DNA from: Sulfodiicoccus acidiphilus
Lineage (GTDB): Archaea; Thermoproteota; Thermoprotei_A; Sulfolobales; Sulfolobaceae
Length of the DNA stretch: 64,000 nucleotides
Assembly (NCBI RefSeq): GCF_003967175.1
Contig: NZ_AP018553.1
Coordinates: forward strand, 310,001-374,000
Reading direction: 5' to 3'
In this document: positions 25,257-35,156 of the stretch, piece by piece
Position numbering within the stretch: the first letter of the stretch is position 1
Layout of the letters: each line of letters opens with the position of its first letter
The notes under the pieces: model-generated
Database searches by the model: none
Seen by the model: only the letters and a program-made list of their open reading frames with translations
Told to the model about the DNA's origin: nothing
Made by a program: the position numbers and the translations under genes

Positions 25257-26093
25257 TTGGTTCAACTGAGGCTCCCCCCGCTCACCGACGATCCTAGGTT
25301 CTTGGACATGTCCTACGAGGAACAGGGAGCGGTGGAGGAGGAGCGCAGGAACCTCGATTCTCTCCCCCCAGAGGAGAGAGAGGTCGCCCTAAAGTATTGG
25401 AGGGAGGTGAAGTCCGACTTCAGGTTCGACGAGTACCTGAGGGGATGCCTGAACTGCGGCGTCTGCACTTCAGCATGTCCAGCGGCCAAGTTCTACGACT
25501 TCGGACCTAGGGAAATGATACAGTACATGATGAGGGACGAGGCCGATAAGATATACGAGTTCGTCAACAAGAAGGTGTGGGCCTGCGTTCAGTGCTACTC
25601 CTGTTCCATGAGGTGTCCCTTCAACAACGAGATCGCCGGGCTCATAATGGTGCTCCGGGAATACGCCGTCAAGATGGGCCTCAAGTCGGCCAAGGAGATA
25701 CTGGCCCCCTATAGGAGGATCCTTTACGTAGTCATGACCACGGGAAACCAGGTTACCCCAAACATGATACAGCCAGAGACCTTCCCTGACTGGGGGCCAC
25801 AGGCGGTAGAGGAGGCCAAGAACATGGACCTCTACAGGAAGGCCGTCCCTGTAGACCTCCTCCAGAGGTCTGACATAGGTTGGCACGCCTCCCTTCAGAC
25901 TGCAGTGGAGCTCATGACAATAATGATAGAATCAGGCGTCCTAGACTCCATAAGGAACGTGGACCAGGACCTCTACGACATGATAATGGACATATACGAC
26001 GAGAGGAGCCAGCAGCTCAGGGAGATAAAGGAGAAGTACGAGAGGGGAGAACTCAACGAGGACGAGCTTCCCGATAGTTGGCTAGATCTTTAA
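25257..26093 (+). CDS. hdrC1: sHdr complex iron-sulfur subunit HdrC1
   Basis: Heterodisulfide-reductase-like subunit with two [4Fe-4S] motifs: CLNCGVCTSACP (about residues 63-74) and CVQCYSCSMRCP (about 110-121). The rest is helical. In sulfur oxidisers the sHdr complex (C1, B1, A, C2, B2) oxidises carrier-bound sulfur in the cytoplasm to sulfite. 278 residues; the long acidic N- and C-termini are usual for this subfamily. TTG start at 25257 supported by promoter distance and absence of another frame-compatible start. The gene has its own promoter and a separate promoter precedes hdrB1. Confidence 0.9.
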   Translation: MVQLRLPPLTDDPRFLDMSYEEQGAVEEERRNLDSLPPEEREVALKYWREVKSDFRFDEYLRGCLNCGVCTSACPAAKFYDFGPREMIQYMMRDEADKIYEFVNKKVWACVQCYSCSMRCPFNNEIAGLIMVLREYAVKMGLKSAKEILAPYRRILYVVMTTGNQVTPNMIQPETFPDWGPQAVEEAKNMDLYRKAVPVDLLQRSDIGWHASLQTAVELMTIMIESGVLDSIRNVDQDLYDMIMDIYDERSQQLREIKEKYERGELNEDELPDSWLDL

Positions 26094-26170
26094 CTAAAAA
26101 TTTGTGAAACTTCCAATATCCTCGCGAGTTGTGAGAGGTTTTATGAGTTGACGGGAATTTATTCATAAAA

Positions 26171-26180
26171 ATTTTTAAAT
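26171..26180 (+). promoter_or_regulatory. TATA promoter of hdrB1-A-hyp-C2-B2
   Basis: ATTTTTAAAT, centred about 38 bases before the ATG at 26214, within the AT-rich 120-base gap after hdrC1. It predicts a leader of about ten bases. Confidence 0.55.
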
Positions 26181-26213
26181 GCTACTGCCGCTAAGTATCC
26201 TCGTAATGGTAAC

Positions 26214-27533
26214 ATGATGTCCCAGGAGAGGAAAATAGAAGAGGAGCTCAAGGATGCCTTCCCGTACTCGGATCAGGTGAACTGGGAGGAGGTGTACCAG
26301 AGGGTCATATACAGGTACAGTACCCCCCACGGAGTCCAGCATGTGAAGGAGGAGCTGCACCGCCTGGAGGACAGGGGGGAATTAATTGTCCACCACATAA
26401 GGCCCTACAACCAACCAACGGAGTACCAGACCATAAACGGCGAGCCCAAGAAGATACCTACTACCAAGCTCTGGCACCATAAGTCCTGTGGGCAGTGCGG
26501 TCACATCCCGGGCTATCCTACCTCCGTGTTTTGGATAATGAACAAGTTGGAGACCGACTACGTTGACGAGCCACACCAGACCTCGTGCACAGGGTGGAAC
26601 TATCACGCCTCGGGCGCCTCGAATCCAGTCGCCCTAGCAGGGGTTTTCGCTAGGAACTTCTGGAGGAGCTACGAGATAGACTACTTCCCCTTGATCCACT
26701 GCGGCACGTCCTTCGGCCACTACAAGGAGATAAGGAACATGCTCGTCCTTCACAAGGAAGTCAGGGAGAAGCTCAGGCCCATAATGAGGAAGCTCGACAT
26801 GGACATAGTAGTACCAGAGGAGATAGTCCACTACAGCGAGTGGATGTTCGTGAAGAGTAAGGAAGCCGCGAGACAGAGGAAGTACGATCTCTCCTCAATC
26901 AAGGCCGCTGTTCACACCCCTTGTCACGTGTATAAGCTAGTTCCTGACGATACGATATACGACCCCTCAGTCTTCCAAGGGAGGAGGCCAGCGGCGCCCA
27001 CTGGCACTGTGATAAACATGGGTGCCAAGATAGTAGATTACTCCACCTGGTGGGACTGTTGCGGTTTCGGGTTCAGGCACATCCTCACCGAGAGGGAGTT
27101 CACGAGGTCCTTCGCGCTCTTCAAGAAGGTTATTCCAGCCGTCGAGGAAGGCCATGCGGACGTCTTCGTGACCTCCGACACGGGGTGTGTGACGACCTTG
27201 GACAAGAGCCAGTGGGCCGGGAAGGCTCACGGCCTCAACTACAACCTCCCCGTTCTCGCCGACGCCCAGTTCGTCGCCTTGGCCATGGGTGCAGATCCCT
27301 ACACTATAGGACAGATCCATTGGCACGCCACGGACGTGGAGGGCTTCCTCAGGAAGGTGGGAGTTCCGGTAGACGAGTACAAGGAGAAGTTCAACCAATA
27401 CCTGCAAGATCTCAAGGAAGGGAAGGCGGATCCCAATTACCTCTATAGGCCGCACAGGAAGATAGACTACTACCTGGCCCTTCCAGACAGGGTGAAGTGG
27501 CTTAAGGGAGGAAAGCAGGAGGGATCCAGTTGA
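26214..27533 (+). CDS. hdrB1: sHdr complex subunit HdrB1
   Basis: A 439-residue B-type subunit with two cysteine-rich (CCG-type) regions: SCGQCGHIPGYP and TSCTGWNYHASG ... HCGTSFGH in the N-terminal half, and HTPCHVYK ... WWDCCGFGFRH ... TSDTGCVT in the second half. In methanogen HdrB such motifs hold non-cubane clusters at the disulfide site. The B1 form has a degenerate first motif compared with HdrB2. Start: ATG at 26214, directly followed by a second ATG. The stop overlaps the hdrA start by 4 bp. Confidence 0.9.
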   Translation: MMSQERKIEEELKDAFPYSDQVNWEEVYQRVIYRYSTPHGVQHVKEELHRLEDRGELIVHHIRPYNQPTEYQTINGEPKKIPTTKLWHHKSCGQCGHIPGYPTSVFWIMNKLETDYVDEPHQTSCTGWNYHASGASNPVALAGVFARNFWRSYEIDYFPLIHCGTSFGHYKEIRNMLVLHKEVREKLRPIMRKLDMDIVVPEEIVHYSEWMFVKSKEAARQRKYDLSSIKAAVHTPCHVYKLVPDDTIYDPSVFQGRRPAAPTGTVINMGAKIVDYSTWWDCCGFGFRHILTEREFTRSFALFKKVIPAVEEGHADVFVTSDTGCVTTLDKSQWAGKAHGLNYNLPVLADAQFVALAMGADPYTIGQIHWHATDVEGFLRKVGVPVDEYKEKFNQYLQDLKEGKADPNYLYRPHRKIDYYLALPDRVKWLKGGKQEGSS

Positions 27534-28612
27534 AGAAGGTGTTGGTTGTAGGAGGAGGCCCTGCTGGACTAAGCGCCACGAAGGAGCTCGCCAGCATGGG
27601 GATCGAGGTTTTGCTGGTGGAGAAGGACCCACAACTGGGAGGAACCCCGAAGAAGTTGCACTACAGCCTACTCTTCCCAGAGCTTAGACCGGCCTCCCAA
27701 GTCATAGATCCGCTCGTAAAGTCCGCGACCGAGAACGGTAACGTCAAGGTGAGGCTCAACAGCATAGTGGAGGCAGCGAACCAATCTGAGTCTGGCTTCG
27801 AAGTGAAGGTGTCGGAGAAGGGTGGTAGATCGTCCACGGAGAAGGTGGACGCCGTGATCGCGGCCTCAGGTTTCGAACACTTCGACTCCAGAAGGAAGTA
27901 CGAGTACGGCTACGGCATAATTCCCAACATCTACCAAATATCGGACATTGAGAAGATGCTCTCCGAGAACAACTTAGTGACCTCCACAGGGAAGGTTCCC
28001 AAGAGGATAGCAATTCTCCTCTGCGTCGGTTCGAGGGACGCTACGGTGGGGAACACCTACTGTTCGAGGGTATGCTGCGCAGTATCCATCAAGCAGGCCA
28101 TGGAGATAAAGCAGAGGATACCCGACGCCGTGGTACACATCTACTACATGGACATAAGGACGTACGGACTCATGGAGGACAAGTTATACTGGAGGTCTCA
28201 GCTCGACTACAGGGTCGGCTACATAAGGGGGAGGATATCTGAGTTCATGAGGGGACCCAACGACACCGTTGTCATAAAGGGCGAAGACACAATGAACCTC
28301 AACAGGGCGCTGGTAGTACCTTACGACATGGTGATCTTGGCCAACGGGATGGAGCTTGGGCTAGGTTCCAAACAGGTGGCCAAGGTATTGGGTCTGGAGG
28401 TGGAGGAGCACGGCTTCGTGAAGCCTGCGGACCCAGACTCCATGCCGGTAGTGTCCACAAGGAAGGGAGTGTTCTTGGCGGGCGCCTTAACTGGGCCGAA
28501 GACTATATCCGACTCGATCATGGAGGGGCAGGCCGCAGCCATGAAGACCTTCCAGTACGTGACGAGCGGGTTGTGGGAGACCCCAGTCAAGGTGGAGGTG
28601 GCCCAGCATTAG
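27530..28612 (+). CDS. hdrA: sHdr complex flavoprotein HdrA
   Basis: FAD-binding core of the sHdr complex. The dinucleotide motif VVGGGPAGLSATKEL (about 5-19) is followed by an acidic end of strand two (LLVEKDP), and an iron-sulfur region CVGSRDATVGNTYCSRVCC (about 164-182). A second flavin motif is at GVFLAGALTGPKTISDSIMEGQAA. It is the short HdrA of sulfur oxidisers (360 residues), lacking the ferredoxin-like C-terminus of methanogens. TTG start overlapping hdrB1. Confidence 0.93.
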   Translation: MKKVLVVGGGPAGLSATKELASMGIEVLLVEKDPQLGGTPKKLHYSLLFPELRPASQVIDPLVKSATENGNVKVRLNSIVEAANQSESGFEVKVSEKGGRSSTEKVDAVIAASGFEHFDSRRKYEYGYGIIPNIYQISDIEKMLSENNLVTSTGKVPKRIAILLCVGSRDATVGNTYCSRVCCAVSIKQAMEIKQRIPDAVVHIYYMDIRTYGLMEDKLYWRSQLDYRVGYIRGRISEFMRGPNDTVVIKGEDTMNLNRALVVPYDMVILANGMELGLGSKQVAKVLGLEVEEHGFVKPADPDSMPVVSTRKGVFLAGALTGPKTISDSIMEGQAAAMKTFQYVTSGLWETPVKVEVAQH

Positions 28613-28652
28613 GTACCTAAACGTCGAGAGTGTAACGGAGATCTACAAGGCC

Positions 28653-29321
28653 ATGGTGGGGAGGGACCCGCGCAACAGTTCCAGGGACCCTAGGGATTCC
28701 TTGAGGGCGATACTGGACGCGGCTGAGCTGAAGGGAAGCTTCCTCAGGACCACGAGGCTTACCTCCCTAGAGGAGGGGAGAAGGGCACTGAACTCAGTCT
28801 TCTACACAAGGAAGTACTCTAGGTCCCTAACCGAGGACAGTCTCCATCAGTTCAGGGAGTGTCTAGACCGGCTGAGGAGCTCCGAGTCCCTCAGTGAGGC
28901 CGCTAAGGCTTCCTCTTGTCTCTCCTTCTCTAGAAAGGAAGATGCAGTGGACTTCTCCAGGGAGGTGCTGCACTTCGTTGCCCCCCAAAGGTTTCCCCTG
29001 TGGACTAGGTGGATATGGAACCCTGAGAGGGGAACAGGTGCACTGACGTATGTCCTCAGGGATGGCGTCAAGCCAGGTCAGGATCCAGCAGAGGTGTTAG
29101 GGGAGCTCCGTCAAGTGCTAGATACCTTCGGACTCCAGACTGGGGACTTCGTTCCCACCGCGGTCTTCACGGTGTACTCCTACGTGCGATACTTGGACTA
29201 CACCACTCTCCTCGCCATAGACAAGAAGGTCGCCGGGCTCCTCCCCACCCACCTAGGTACCACAGCGATGGTGATGGGCCTCAAGGACTTCCTGAGGGTG
29301 AGAGTCAGTGCCAATCCCTGA
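28653..29321 (+). CDS. Hyp protein of the sHdr cluster
   Basis: A 222-residue protein between hdrA and hdrC2, in the place of the conserved gene called hyp in sHdr loci of bacteria and archaea. It is mainly helical, without Cys-rich motifs (one Cys near 76 and one near 89), and no membrane segments. The reading frame continues upstream of the ATG without a stop through codons for RYLNVESVTEIYKA back to an ATT at 28609 that overlaps the hdrA stop. A rare ATT start coupled to hdrA is therefore possible. It overlaps hdrC2 by 14 bp. Function is not known. Confidence 0.75.
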
Positions 29322-30000
29322 ATTGGAGAAGCCCATAATAAAGGGCCTCATATCCAAGGACAAGGCCTTCATAGACGGCGTCGAAGTAGACGGGACTTGG
29401 AACACTTTCATAGTGGAGAGGACCCAGACCGGTTACGATCAGAGCATCTGGGACGAGGTCGCGTCCACATTGGAGGGTGTTACCATAAGCGCTTGCTGGC
29501 AGTGTGGCACCTGCACTAGCGGGTGCACGATGAGGGAGTACGATCCCCAATTCGGGCCGAGGAAGTTCATCGATCTGGCAAGGAAGGGCGACAGACAGGC
29601 CCTAGTGGAGCTCCAGGACAGCCTCTGGAGGTGCGTATCGTGCCAGAAGTGCACCCACAGGTGCCCTAAGGGGGTGATGGTGGAGGAGGTGGTGCACGCC
29701 ATACATCACAACCTGCTCAGGCACGGGCTAGTGAAGAAGGACCCTGGAACTAAGTTCGACGAACTGTTCCTCGAAACTGTAATGAGGAACGGCGGGAGGA
29801 TAACGGAGCTGACGCTCGGTGCAGCCTCGGCCAAGGCGGGGTTCGTCACCCTCAGCGTCAAGGACCTGATCAAGATGGGAGGGACGTTGCTCAGATCTGG
29901 GCTGGTGAAGGACCTGATAAAGCCCAGCAGGGTCAAGAAATGGGAGAAGGTGAAGGGCGTCCTCGAGGAGGCCATGAAGGAGGAGGTGAGGCTGGAGTGA
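29308..30000 (+). CDS. hdrC2: sHdr complex iron-sulfur subunit HdrC2
   Basis: A 230-residue C-type subunit with two [4Fe-4S] sites: [11 protein letters not shown] (about 63-73) and [12 protein letters not shown] (about 110-121). The C-terminal part is a set of helices with hydrophobic patches (LIKMGGTLL), possibly for contact with the partner B2 or the membrane. GTG start inside the hyp 3' end; the stop overlaps hdrB2 by 4 bp, so C2 and B2 are translationally coupled. Confidence 0.92.
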
Positions 30001-30923
30001 GTGGAGACGACGGGAAGAACGTGTACGGAAAGGCCGTACTGTATCCAGGCTGCTCGCTCGATGGGCTCGGGAAGTCCTACGACGTCTCCTTGAGGCTGGT
30101 AACGGAGGACCTGGGAGTTCCCTACGAGAAGGTGGAGGACTACAACTGTTGCGGCGCGTTGGAGGTGAAGAACGTCAACACCATGCTCGGGCTCCTACTT
30201 CCAGCTAGGAACCTGTCCCTAGCTCAGTCCATGGGAGCCAACACGGTTGTGTCTGCCTGTCCCGGCTGTCACTACTCCCTCTCAAGGGCCCACTACTACG
30301 TCAATAGGTACGGGAAGGTGGCAGATAAGGTTAACGAGAAACTCAAGAAGATGGACGAGGTTCCGTACGAGGGTAAGCTGACAATGGCACATGCCGTGGA
30401 ATACATATACAACGCAGCTGGAGTGGAGGAAGTGAAGAAGAGGGTGAGGAGACCCCTCACTGGCCTGAGGGTGGCCCCTTACTACGGCTGCCTCTACGCT
30501 AGGCCCAAACAGTTCCTAGGGACGGGTTACTCTCCCCTCAAGGACGATCCAGAGAGGCCTTACTTCATGGACGAGCTGCTCAGGGCCGTGGGGGCCGAGG
30601 TTGTGCAGTTCGAGGCTAAGACCACCTGTTGCGGAGGGCCTCACGTCTATTCCGACGCGGAGGTGGCGATGCATTTGGAAGCGAGGATACTCAAGGAGGC
30701 GAGGAGGAACGGCGCTGAGCTCTTGGTGACCGACTGTCCCCTGGGACATGTGGCCATAGAGACCAACATGGATAAGATAGCGAAGAAGTACGGGGAGGAG
30801 CTCAGGACCCCCCTTGCGTACTTCACGCAGCTCTTGGCGTTCGCCTTCGGCCACTCTCCAGGCGAGGTGCTCCTCACGGCTAACCTCACGGATCCCATGG
30901 CCGTCCTCAGGAGGTTCTTGTAG
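29997..30923 (+). CDS. hdrB2: sHdr complex subunit HdrB2
   Basis: Full B-type subunit with both cysteine motifs: YPGCSLDG ... YNCCGALEV ... SACPGCHYS, and YYGCLYARP ... TTCCGGPHV ... VTDCPLGH. These match the CX(n)CCGX(n)CXXC pattern of the non-cubane cluster binding sites. The GTG at 29997, overlapping the hdrC2 stop, gives a N-terminus ([17 protein letters not shown]) like that of homologues; the upstream in-frame ATG at 29940 lies inside hdrC2 and encodes low-complexity sequence. Last gene of the hdrB1-A-hyp-C2-B2 transcript. Confidence 0.93.
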
Positions 30924-30925
30924 AG

Positions 30926-30949
30926 AAGATTTTTTACTTTTTAATTAAA
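30926..30949 (+). promoter_or_regulatory. TATA-rich promoter of lbpA-lpl(AB)
   Basis: An AT-rich block between hdrB2 and lbpA containing ATTTTTTAC and TTTTTAATTAAAC. The first is about 23 bases before the GTG at 30953, so the carrier-ligase pair can be transcribed on its own. Confidence 0.5.
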
Positions 30950-30952
30950 CTG

Positions 30953-31411
30953 GTGGCCGAGAACATGGTAGTCGAGTCCAACTGCGAGGTCCCCGAGGAC
31001 CTCTATTACTACATAGAGGGAAAGAACACGGTGTGGGGGAAACTTGAAGGGGACGTCATGACCGTTGGCATAACTGACGTCGCTCAGACCATGGCGGGGA
31101 AGCTAGTCAAGGTGAGGCTGAAGAAGAAGGGAGTGAAGGTGGACAGGGGTAGACCAGTAGCTACCATGGAGAGCGGGAAGTGGGCCGGTGCAGTTCCTTC
31201 ACCAGTTAGCGGCGAGATAGTCGAGGTCAACGAGGAAGTGGAGAAGTCGCCGTCGCTGGTGAACCAAGACCCTTACGGAAAGGGATGGCTAGTCAAGTTG
31301 AAGGTGTTGAACAGGGAAGAGCTTAAGCAGCTCTACACCTCCTCTGTCGCAGTGGACAAGGTGAGGGGGCTCATACAGTCTGAGAAGATACAGTGTAAGA
31401 GGGTGACGTAG
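30953..31411 (+). CDS. lbpA: Lipoate-binding protein LbpA (GcvH-like)
   Basis: A GcvH-fold lipoyl carrier dedicated to the sHdr sulfur-oxidation pathway. The lipoyl hairpin has Lys76 in VATMESGKWAG, the expected modification site. The flanking sequence ITDVAQTMAGKLVKVRL and PSPVSGEIVEVN is typical for the H-protein barrel. 152 residues. GTG start; the stop overlaps the ligase start. No glycine-cleavage genes are nearby, consistent with a specialised role. Confidence 0.93.
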   Translation: MAENMVVESNCEVPEDLYYYIEGKNTVWGKLEGDVMTVGITDVAQTMAGKLVKVRLKKKGVKVDRGRPVATMESGKWAGAVPSPVSGEIVEVNEEVEKSPSLVNQDPYGKGWLVKLKVLNREELKQLYTSSVAVDKVRGLIQSEKIQCKRVT

Positions 31412-32502
31412 TGAACTGGAGATTCGTCTCTCTCCCGCCTCAAGACGGTCCCCACATGATCACCTCCTTTGTAGCCGTGGCCGACTACGTTTCCAAGGGA
31501 GGGAAAAACACGTTCTTGACCTTCACGACCTCGGAGCCCTTCGTAAATGTAGGAGTTCACCAGGAGATCTGGCTCGAGGTGGACATGGACTTCGTGAGGA
31601 GGAGGGGTCTCACCGTGGTTCGTAGGGACTTGGGCGGCGGGACAGTGGTCATAACGGACGGGGAACAGGACTTCTTCGTCGTAGTCAACGCTGAAGAAGC
31701 CCCAGCGGCGCCCTCCAAGCTATACCAACGCTACTTGGCGCCGGTGGTGGAGGCCCTCAGGTCCTACGGCCTCAACGCCACCCTGAGGGATCAGGACATA
31801 GTGGTGAACGGGAGGAAGATAAGTGGTAACGGCGCCATGACTCGCGGGAACGCCGTAGTCGTAGCGGGAAACGTCCTTATGAGGCTCGACTTGGACGTGA
31901 TCGCTGGGGCGATTAGGGTTCCCAGCGAGAAGTTCAGGGACAAGATGGCTAAGGACATGTCCCAGTGGCTTACGAGCCTCGAGAGGGAGCTCGGCTATCT
32001 CCCCACAAGGGAGGACCTGGTGTCTAGGTTGAAGAGGGCGTTCGAGGAGGCGGGCGTGAGATTCGAGGACTCCCCCCTCACCTTGGAGGAGGTGGAGGAG
32101 TGGAACCGGCTCGCCGAGGATAAGCGGGCGGAGAGCTGGACCTTCTATAGGGACAACAGACACCCCTCGTTGAGGACCGAGAGGTGCGTGAAGATATCTT
32201 CCGCTGCAGTGCTGTGCCACGTGGACCACAAGGGGAGGAAACTCGTCAGGCTGACAGCTAGGATAGTGGACGGTAAGCTGGACGAGGTTTCGATCTCTGG
32301 CGATTTCTTCGTGATGTCCCCCCAAGGTTTCCTCGACTCCCTAGAGGACTCCCTGAGGGGAGTGGACGTGAAGGACGTTTCCAAGGCCGTCTCCGACGCC
32401 TTCAGCAAGTACTCGCCCAAGGCCTTCGGACTCGAGGAGGCCGACGTGCAGGTCGCCTTCCAGAAGCTACTTCAGTCTCCCGAGGTCAGGGAGGTGACTT
32501 AG
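31411..32502 (+). CDS. Lipoate-protein ligase of the sHdr system, fused LplA-LplB domains
   Basis: A ligase that activates lipoate and attaches it to LbpA. The N-terminal LplA-like catalytic domain has the RRDLGGGTVV lipoyl-AMP loop (about residues 70-80) and the catalytic lysine in VVNGRKISGNG (about 130-140). From about residue 250 a LplB-like accessory domain follows in the same chain (sLpl(AB) architecture). GTG start overlapping lbpA by one base. No lipoyl synthase is next to it. The final bases overlap a small ORF on the other strand. Confidence 0.9.
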   Translation: MNWRFVSLPPQDGPHMITSFVAVADYVSKGGKNTFLTFTTSEPFVNVGVHQEIWLEVDMDFVRRRGLTVVRRDLGGGTVVITDGEQDFFVVVNAEEAPAAPSKLYQRYLAPVVEALRSYGLNATLRDQDIVVNGRKISGNGAMTRGNAVVVAGNVLMRLDLDVIAGAIRVPSEKFRDKMAKDMSQWLTSLERELGYLPTREDLVSRLKRAFEEAGVRFEDSPLTLEEVEEWNRLAEDKRAESWTFYRDNRHPSLRTERCVKISSAAVLCHVDHKGRKLVRLTARIVDGKLDEVSISGDFFVMSPQGFLDSLEDSLRGVDVKDVSKAVSDAFSKYSPKAFGLEEADVQVAFQKLLQSPEVREVT

Positions 32503-32584
32503 CTCGACAACTCTTGAGGCAGTCCTCGAGGTCGAGGTAACTCCAGCTGTCCCGGGGTTTCAGGCACATCTCGAGGCAGTTCAT
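32486..32584 (-). CDS. Twin-CX3C microprotein (32 residues)
   Basis: A short reading frame antisense to the lpl(AB) end and the following gap. It encodes MNCLEMCLKPRDSW then SYLDLEDCLKSCRAKSPP: two CxxxC motifs (residues 3-7 and 22-26) each at the start of a probable helix, separated by a basic-aromatic linker. The pattern suggests a helical hairpin that binds a metal or forms two disulfides, like CX3C small carrier proteins. The ATG at 32584 is back to back with the plus-strand gene at 32587. A weak TATA-like CATATTA lies about 25 bases upstream. Not covered by any longer gene, and amino acid composition is protein-like. Alternative: chance ORF. Confidence 0.5.
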   Translation of the reverse strand: MNCLEMCLKPRDSWSYLDLEDCLKSCRAKSPP

Positions 32585-32586
32585 AG

Positions 32587-33033
32587 TTGAATTTCCACGA
32601 GGACGGTAATATGGTTTCTCTAGACGAACTGGAGGTGCTGGGGAGGCTCAAGGTAGGGGAAAGGGAGCTCGAGGTGGTGAGTGCACCTAGCCCCCTCGAC
32701 TCGAGGTCCTGGCCGGAGGTCAGGGAGAAGCTACTGACTTGGAGACCACAGGTAGTCGCTGACGTATTGGAGCTGAACGGCTTAGCCTGCCCGGTGGTGG
32801 GAAATCGAGTGATCCTCCTAGACGAGGAGACCTCCGCCGTCCTCAGGGAGTTGTTGTCCCTGTTCCACCCCAGGGCTCCTCCCGACGTTTTCGCCAGTGC
32901 CGTAGTTGGGAACGTCCTCAACGAGATGGAGAGGCAGGTAGGGAGGGCCTTCACTAACGAGGAGAGGGTCTCGGTCACGTTGAAGCTAGTCATGAGCCTC
33001 TCGCTTTTGGTGGACCTCGGGGTGATCCGTTGA
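32587..33033 (+). CDS. Unknown protein downstream of the lipoate ligase
   Basis: A 148-residue protein that I do not recognise. TTG at 32587 or ATG at 32611 may be the start; the second leaves room for a promoter of the minus-strand microprotein. It is helical with a central LNGLACPVVGNRVILLDEETS segment and one Cys (about residue 67). It has no membrane segment. It overlaps the OsmC gene by 4 bp, so the two are co-translated, and both probably belong to the sulfur locus. A role in sulfur or lipoyl handling is inference from position only. Confidence 0.65.
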   Translation: MNFHEDGNMVSLDELEVLGRLKVGERELEVVSAPSPLDSRSWPEVREKLLTWRPQVVADVLELNGLACPVVGNRVILLDEETSAVLRELLSLFHPRAPPDVFASAVVGNVLNEMERQVGRAFTNEERVSVTLKLVMSLSLLVDLGVIR

Positions 33034-33446
33034 CCACGATAACGTTCGCGGCCGAGGCCAAACTCGAGGAAGAGAAGGTCAGGGTCTACGTGAAGGACTC
33101 CGAACTAGTGGTGGGAACCATAGGTTCCGACTACCCCACCCCAGAGGAGTTGCTACTCTCTGCGGCCCTCTCCTGTCTCCTCCTAACCCTCCTCTACGTG
33201 GCCAGGGAGATGGAGGTCCACCTGGAGGAGGTGGATGGGTACATAGAGGGCGACCTCGACCCTGCAGGATTCAACGGAGGGGCAGTACCTCCAGGTGTGC
33301 TCGAGGTGAGGTACTTCGTGAAGGTGAGAAGCTCCGATCCCCGAGTTAGCGACGTACTTAACGCCTCAGAAAGGAGGTGCCCCCTCAAGGACACGCTCAC
33401 TAGGTCGGTTAGAGTGAGGGTCAACTGGCAGCTAGTCCACACTTAG
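33030..33446 (+). CDS. OsmC-family protein
   Basis: A 138-residue OsmC-fold protein. Family features are the TPEELLLSAALSCLLLTLLYVARE helix with the first reactive Cys (about residue 49) and the second Cys in RRCPLKDTL near the C-terminus. OsmC proteins reduce organic peroxides or handle persulfides through these two cysteines. In this sulfur-oxidation context a persulfide or sulfane-sulfur role is plausible but not shown. TTG start overlapping the preceding unknown gene by 4 bp. Confidence 0.8.
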   Translation: MTTITFAAEAKLEEEKVRVYVKDSELVVGTIGSDYPTPEELLLSAALSCLLLTLLYVAREMEVHLEEVDGYIEGDLDPAGFNGGAVPPGVLEVRYFVKVRSSDPRVSDVLNASERRCPLKDTLTRSVRVRVNWQLVHT

Positions 33447-34487: not shown

Positions 34488-35156
34488 ATGCTGAAGGTAA
34501 CGTTCTTCCACGACGTGATATGCCCGTTCTGCTACGTGACTTCGAAGAGGTTGAGGAGGGTCGTCCCCGAGTTCAAGGTGGAGGTAGTGCACAAGTCGTT
34601 CTCCATAATATCTTCCCTAGAGGACCTCAAGTTCGTCGCCCCGGACGAGGAGAGCGTGAGGGAGTTCTTCAAGAGCGAGTTCTCGATATTGAAAAGGTTC
34701 ATGCCAGACTACGAGGAGGGGAAAGTGATATCCAAGGGGAACCTGGGCTACGTCTGGTCCATGCCCCCACTTATGGCGTGTAAGGCGGCAGAGTTTCAGA
34801 GGGGTTCGGAGGGCTACTGGGAGTACTTCGACAGGGCCCAGGACGCCTTCTTCTTGGAGGGGCAGAACGTGGCAGACGAGGAGGTCCTCCTCTCCATCGC
34901 CAAGTCGCTGAACTTCGACGTGGAGAGGTTCAGGGAGGACATGGGGGCCAAGAAGACGAAGCTCGCCGTGATCTCCGACGAGGAGGAGGCGAGGGCAATG
35001 GGGATCCGAGGTGTGCCGGCACTCATAATAAACGACCAGTGGATAGTGAGGGGAGTCCCAACAGAGGAGAAGCTCAGGGACGTGTTCTCGGACATAGAGG
35101 CCCACGGCGAGCCCAGGAAGGTGAGGCTGAAAGCCTACTGGGAGAAGGACGACTGA
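34488..35156 (+). CDS. DsbA/FrnE-family thiol oxidoreductase
   Basis: A 222-residue thioredoxin-fold protein with the CPFC redox motif at residues 12-15 and the cis-proline loop RGVPALIIN near residue 172, typical of the FrnE/DsbA (2-hydroxychromene-2-carboxylate isomerase-like) family. No signal peptide, so it acts in the cytoplasm on thiols or disulfides. The ATG at 34488 is leaderless; the bases just before it include GTTTGACAT, also present in the palindrome of the RHH gene promoter. Nearby redox genes suggest a stress-response set. Confidence 0.85.
   Translation: MLKVTFFHDVICPFCYVTSKRLRRVVPEFKVEVVHKSFSIISSLEDLKFVAPDEESVREFFKSEFSILKRFMPDYEEGKVISKGNLGYVWSMPPLMACKAAEFQRGSEGYWEYFDRAQDAFFLEGQNVADEEVLLSIAKSLNFDVERFREDMGAKKTKLAVISDEEEARAMGIRGVPALIINDQWIVRGVPTEEKLRDVFSDIEAHGEPRKVRLKAYWEKDD

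Follow-up and report, generated by a model that had tools for sequence, protein, structure and literature searches.

Gene content of the microprotein locus

The region analyzed, referred to below as the window, was a 64-kb stretch of a Sulfodiicoccus acidiphilus genome of 2,353,189 bp in one contig; the G+C content of the window was 54%, and a value of 52% is given for Sulfodiicoccus (PMC8551704). At positions 32486-32584 on the minus strand, the window contained an open reading frame for a microprotein of 32 amino acids, with its ATG start at 32584 and its stop at 32486, whose translation is MNCLEMCLKPRDSWSYLDLEDCLKSCRAKSPP. The frame was as claimed in the original prediction and had two CX3C motifs with 14 residues between them (C7 to C22): the first, residues C3 to C7, was encoded at 32564-32578 and the second, residues C22 to C26, at 32507-32521, both on the minus strand. 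Where the cysteines are numbered by their order (C1, C2, C3, and C4), these ordinals denote residues C3, C7, C22, and C26 of the window protein, respectively. The pattern C-x3-C-x(10-18)-C-x3-C occurred once in the six frames of the window, in the microprotein. The motif by itself was only mildly unusual, since first-order Markov randomizations gave a mean of 0.2 such motifs per window and at most 1; it is conservation, not the motif, that puts this frame far above chance.

The convergent neighbor of the microprotein gene was the lipoate-protein ligase gene lpl (31411-32502, plus strand; Pfam LplA-B_cat), which was preceded by a gene for a GcvH/lipoate-binding protein (30953-31411, plus strand; Pfam GCV_H). 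The microprotein frame had been described as antisense to the 3' end of lpl. This holds for a short convergent overlap of the two tails (17 nt, 32486-32502), whereas the other 82 nt of the gene were intergenic, between lpl and a divergent gene at 32611, and in most other genera the two genes lay well apart. The divergent gene (32611-33033, plus strand) encoded an orphan protein of 140 amino acids, counted from an assumed ATG, with a TTG at 32587 as a possible alternative start. It was followed by a gene for an OsmC-family protein (33030-33446, plus strand; Pfam OsmC, E = 3.3e-17), which has two conserved cysteines among its ortholog sequences and is a putative peroxidase. Farther downstream, the segment 34488-36340 held a gene for a DsbA-like thiol oxidoreductase (34488-35156, plus strand; Pfam DSBA) and one for a rubrerythrin-VIT1 fusion, giving this part of the window an oxidative-stress flavor.

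The ATG-to-ATG spacer between the microprotein gene and the divergent orphan gene was only 26 bp in Sulfodiicoccus. Upstream of the microprotein start, many genera had a GGTG(A) ribosome-binding-like motif, and the divergent spacers contained a conserved A/T-rich element, AAAA(A/G)(A/G)TTTTTTC, which may be a shared promoter or operator. Neither was present at the Sulfodiicoccus locus, and leaderless transcription is therefore likely there, given also the short spacer. A candidate TATA-like element, CATATTA (32607-32613, minus strand), about 25 nt upstream of the ATG, would suit such a transcript.

Conservation and gene order in the Sulfolobaceae

A single-sequence search found relatives of the microprotein in many Sulfolobaceae, and a profile was then built from these. 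The profile identified one ortholog each in 30 of the 31 genomes of these thermoacidophilic Sulfolobaceae, with E values of 1e-10 to 1e-22 for nearly all. No convincing homolog was found in the rest of the class (229 genomes searched in all), where two chance-like matches had E values of 0.007 to 0.009, and a profile search of a phylum sample gave no further homologs. The single-sequence search also pointed to a possible second genomic copy at 1155845-1155931 (E = 0.1), which was taken as chance, as the profile at E = 0.01 misses the region. The only Sulfolobaceae genome without the microprotein was G007 (91% complete), at whose locus, when read, the twin-CX3C frame was absent. The orthologs were mostly 38 to 45 amino acids long, compared with 32 in the window. 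That of genome G016, which we take to be S. acidocaldarius, had 44 amino acids, began with MEQQTSNEECVKDCL..., and lay at 298473-298601 on the minus strand; one study of that species lists 95 putative small genes (PMC12817955). No significant Pfam match was obtained over 21 family members, and the window protein matched no family in NCBIfam or the PDB.

The nucleotide differences among the orthologs were those of a protein under purifying selection. By the Nei-Gojobori method, dN/dS was 0.06 to 0.14 in every within-genus pair for which both rates were non-zero and finite, the other pairs including two without nonsynonymous change and some that were saturated at synonymous sites. Summed over pairs, which are not fully independent, the differences at codon positions 1, 2, and 3 numbered 64, 40, and 220, so that 220 of the 324 were at the third position (binomial p of about 1e-36). 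Between the window gene and that of the sister species (G001), dN/dS was 0.14, and the 26 differences located outside lpl fell 7/4/15 on the three codon positions; the substitution pattern is thus not explained by the lpl frame. The microprotein is almost certainly a real conserved gene. The original prediction, which held that the frame was a genuine microprotein and not chance antisense, and which would have given way to loss of the CX3C motifs in relatives or to a pattern due to the lpl frame or drift, was refuted on neither count: both motifs were kept in 23 of the 30 orthologs, and the third-position excess extended beyond lpl.

Gene order around the microprotein was also conserved. The divergent orphan gene and OsmC were paired at 29 of the 30 microprotein loci; the exception was G011, in which the microprotein gene lay beside gcvH and the orphan gene about 10 kb off. 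In nearly all genomes, gcvH and lpl were within about 3.7 kb of the microprotein gene, on either side. A second orphan family, of about 110 amino acids, was found downstream of OsmC in 27 genomes, directly after it in most; in most of these genomes its gene was located at about +0.9 to +1.3 kb relative to the microprotein gene, farther out in Aramenus, and it was not found at the two Sulfodiicoccus-group loci. In addition, a CBS-domain gene followed the microprotein gene on the same strand in 16 genomes, and a DsbA-like protein was encoded in the neighborhood in 10.

The divergent orphan family, a constant neighbor, was confined to the Sulfolobaceae and present in all 31 of their genomes. Its window member had no Pfam or NCBIfam match; the AlphaFold2 model (pLDDT 92) places the C-terminal half in the order beta-beta-beta-alpha-alpha-alpha. 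Weak Foldseek matches to this model included ThcOx and McbBCD, with a probability of at most 0.30. A reading of the orphan as a PqqD/RRE-like recognition protein for a ribosomally synthesized peptide was not accepted, hhalign giving 0.4% against real PqqD proteins. The orphan protein can act without the microprotein, because G007 has its gene and lacks the microprotein gene. The arrangement in G007 was unusual, with the orphan gene after two Fe-S/CCG-type genes that by eye resemble LutA/LutB (contig L084, 5742-8189).

Cysteine pattern and predicted fold

The genus names used here for relatives (Sulfurisphaera, Stygiolobus, Saccharolobus, and Acidianus) are presumed. The typical ortholog pattern was ...EDPCxxECFKPxxxWKFxDISECLxxCxxxxxxKP; outside Sulfodiicoccus, the first CX3C motif followed an N-terminal stretch of at most about 15 residues, and the loop was longer in Saccharolobus- and Sulfolobus-like genera. 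Residues C7 (in the first motif), W14, and C22 (in the second) were invariant in the alignments. The seven orthologs without both motifs (Sulfurisphaera/Stygiolobus-like genomes and G011) had a two-cysteine form, in which the outer C1 and C4 were both missing and C2 and C3 were retained. At the C4 site, the Sulfurisphaera/Stygiolobus-like genomes had a histidine; G011 did not. In an HdrB2 tree the seven genomes formed one clade with moderate support (80/63), which does not support two independent co-losses.

The AlphaFold2 model, built from a 26-row alignment (pLDDT 69, pTM 0.34), predicts helices at residues 3-8 and 19-28, each holding one CX3C motif; we have moderate confidence in this two-helix arrangement, which makes the helical hairpin proposed for the microprotein plausible. 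Foldseek returned no match to the model. Paired loss of exactly C1 and C4 is what a hairpin stapled by C1-C4 and C2-C3 disulfides would be expected to show, although it was a single event, and we infer that connectivity, with C1-C4 as the outer and C2-C3 as the inner bond.

Candidate roles and comparison with known systems

Among the possible roles, we favor a redox partner, followed by a purely structural subunit and then a zinc-binding hairpin. Under the favored reading, which as a whole mechanism is tentative and falls a little short of an even chance, the cytosolic microprotein (32 amino acids here and mostly 38 to 45 elsewhere) would fold as a helical hairpin, with a CX3C motif in each helix and the two disulfides as staples, and would serve as a small thiol/disulfide partner (a reductant, an oxidation target, or a redox-switched adaptor) of the orphan protein and the OsmC peroxidase. 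Electrons would enter the module from lipoyl-GcvH, the product of the neighboring lipoate ligase. This reading is favored because the microprotein gene is surrounded by genes for OsmC and for a lipoyl carrier with its ligase, because a thiol peroxidase of the Ohr/OsmC family is known to receive electrons from lipoylated proteins (PMC5962072), and because intracellular disulfides are widely used in Sulfolobus (PMC3177088). The redox role and the OsmC/lipoyl partnership are both drawn indirectly, the partnership from gene order only, and synteny with OsmC, the orphan gene, and gcvH would be no proof of interaction. Counting against the proposal, the co-loss of C1 and C4 was a single event, the change of C4 to histidine might be tolerated by a metal site, the AlphaFold2 model is of moderate confidence, and G007 has the orphan gene but no microprotein.

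A purely structural role, in which the microprotein would belong to a complex as a small subunit alongside OsmC, the orphan protein, and the 110-amino-acid protein and its cysteines would only stabilize the fold, is a possibility that we hold to be distinctly lower. Strict synteny suits this role, structural disulfides are common in the group (PMC3177088), and the two-cysteine orthologs are conserved equally well. The microprotein is, however, transcribed divergently and not inside the operon, and further thiol-redox genes occur in its neighborhood.

Somewhat less probable again is a Cys4 zinc-binding hairpin, in which the two CX3C motifs would hold a metal and the protein would act in the orphan/OsmC module as a structural adaptor. 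Conservation of all four cysteines in 23 genomes and the abundance of cysteine metalloproteins in Sulfolobus (PMC3177088) are in keeping with a metal site, and the histidine at C4 in Sulfurisphaera/Stygiolobus-like genomes retains a possible ligand. Against it, C1 and C4 are missing in seven genomes, one of which (G011) lacks the histidine, and no match to a zinc-finger family was found above threshold.

The original prediction had placed the microprotein at a sulfur locus as a thiol or metal carrier coupled to sulfur oxidation. That it is a thiol or metal protein is supported; the coupling to sHdr was rejected on synteny. In the window, the sHdr genes led directly into gcvH and lpl (25257-32502), a junction that occurred in the two Sulfodiicoccus-group genomes and no others; in both of them the microprotein gene adjoins the sHdr genes, and every Sulfolobaceae genome searched had sHdr. 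Across species, however, the sHdr HdrB2 gene adjoined the microprotein gene only in Sulfodiicoccus and was about 10 to 500 kb away elsewhere (where both were on one contig), so that only in this genus is the setting a sulfur locus; the constant partners were instead the orphan gene and OsmC, with gcvH and lpl near. Furthermore, G007 has sHdr without the microprotein, and Sulfodiicoccus grows heterotrophically, with elemental sulfur acting as an inhibitor (PMC8551704). A role as thiol or sulfur carrier for the sHdr complex is thus very improbable, and so the locus marks the microprotein as a small redox-type protein without a name, not as a part of sulfur oxidation. Finally, the possibility that the frame arose antisense by chance and owes its conservation to lpl or intergenic drift alone might have been suggested by the shortness of the frame and its 17-nt overlap with the end of lpl, but is already refuted by orthologs in 30 of 31 genomes with differing gene contexts and by a dN/dS of about 0.1.

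To return to the redox-partner reading, its most specific form is that the microprotein is a dedicated redox relay of a Sulfolobaceae-specific lipoyl-protein/OsmC peroxide-defense module, an archaeal non-thioredoxin stapled-hairpin thiol carrier with the orphan neighbor as its docking partner; in this full form we regard the proposal as unlikely. Should its redox partners prove to be OsmC and lipoyl proteins, the microprotein would represent a minimal archaeal thiol carrier of a non-thioredoxin kind. Whatever its role, it belongs to a conserved family of proteins of about 40 residues that matched no entry of the curated family libraries searched, an addition to what is known of a much-studied group of archaea, and its presence in the genetically tractable genera Sulfolobus and Saccharolobus makes the role directly testable.

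Several known systems resemble the microprotein or its setting. In the mitochondrial intermembrane space, small Tim proteins act as a chaperone in hexameric form, with about 11 to 16 residues between their CX3C motifs, a range within which the spacing of the microprotein falls. They (Tim8/9/10/13, PF02953) share with it the twin CX3C motif (PMC7050145) and, going by its predicted structure, two helices with a CX3C in each. Unlike them, the microprotein is half as large and resides in an archaeal cytosol that has no such import system. The PF02953 profile matched nothing over the cut-off across 31 genomes and nothing at the microprotein locus, one of 21 members of the microprotein family reaching an E value of 0.098, and homology with the small Tims was rejected on the lack of profile similarity at the locus. 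CHCH proteins such as NDUFS5 showed a weak local similarity to the second CX3C helix that was not significant (E = 0.12); these proteins are mitochondrial and have a twin CX9C motif.

In described bacterial systems, an Ohr/OsmC peroxidase is reduced by lipoylated proteins, a likeness to the OsmC, GcvH, and lipoate ligase genes around the microprotein; the difference is that a microprotein is not among the components described in the available text of PMC5962072. Plant alpha-hairpinins are of similar length, adopt a helix-loop-helix fold, and carry the 4C motif CX3C-X4-20-CX3C (PMC11591084), a pattern that 23 of the 30 microprotein orthologs also have. The hairpinins are secreted antimicrobial peptides with a signal peptide, for which the microprotein has no room: as read from the sequences, at most about 15 non-hydrophobic residues precede the motif. 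The hairpinins also have two disulfides, for which the joint loss of C1 and C4 is an indirect pointer in the microprotein. No sequence relationship between the two was found. The twin-CX3C hairpin, a feature of mitochondrial small Tims and plant hairpinins, appears to have a further, independent instance in the microprotein.
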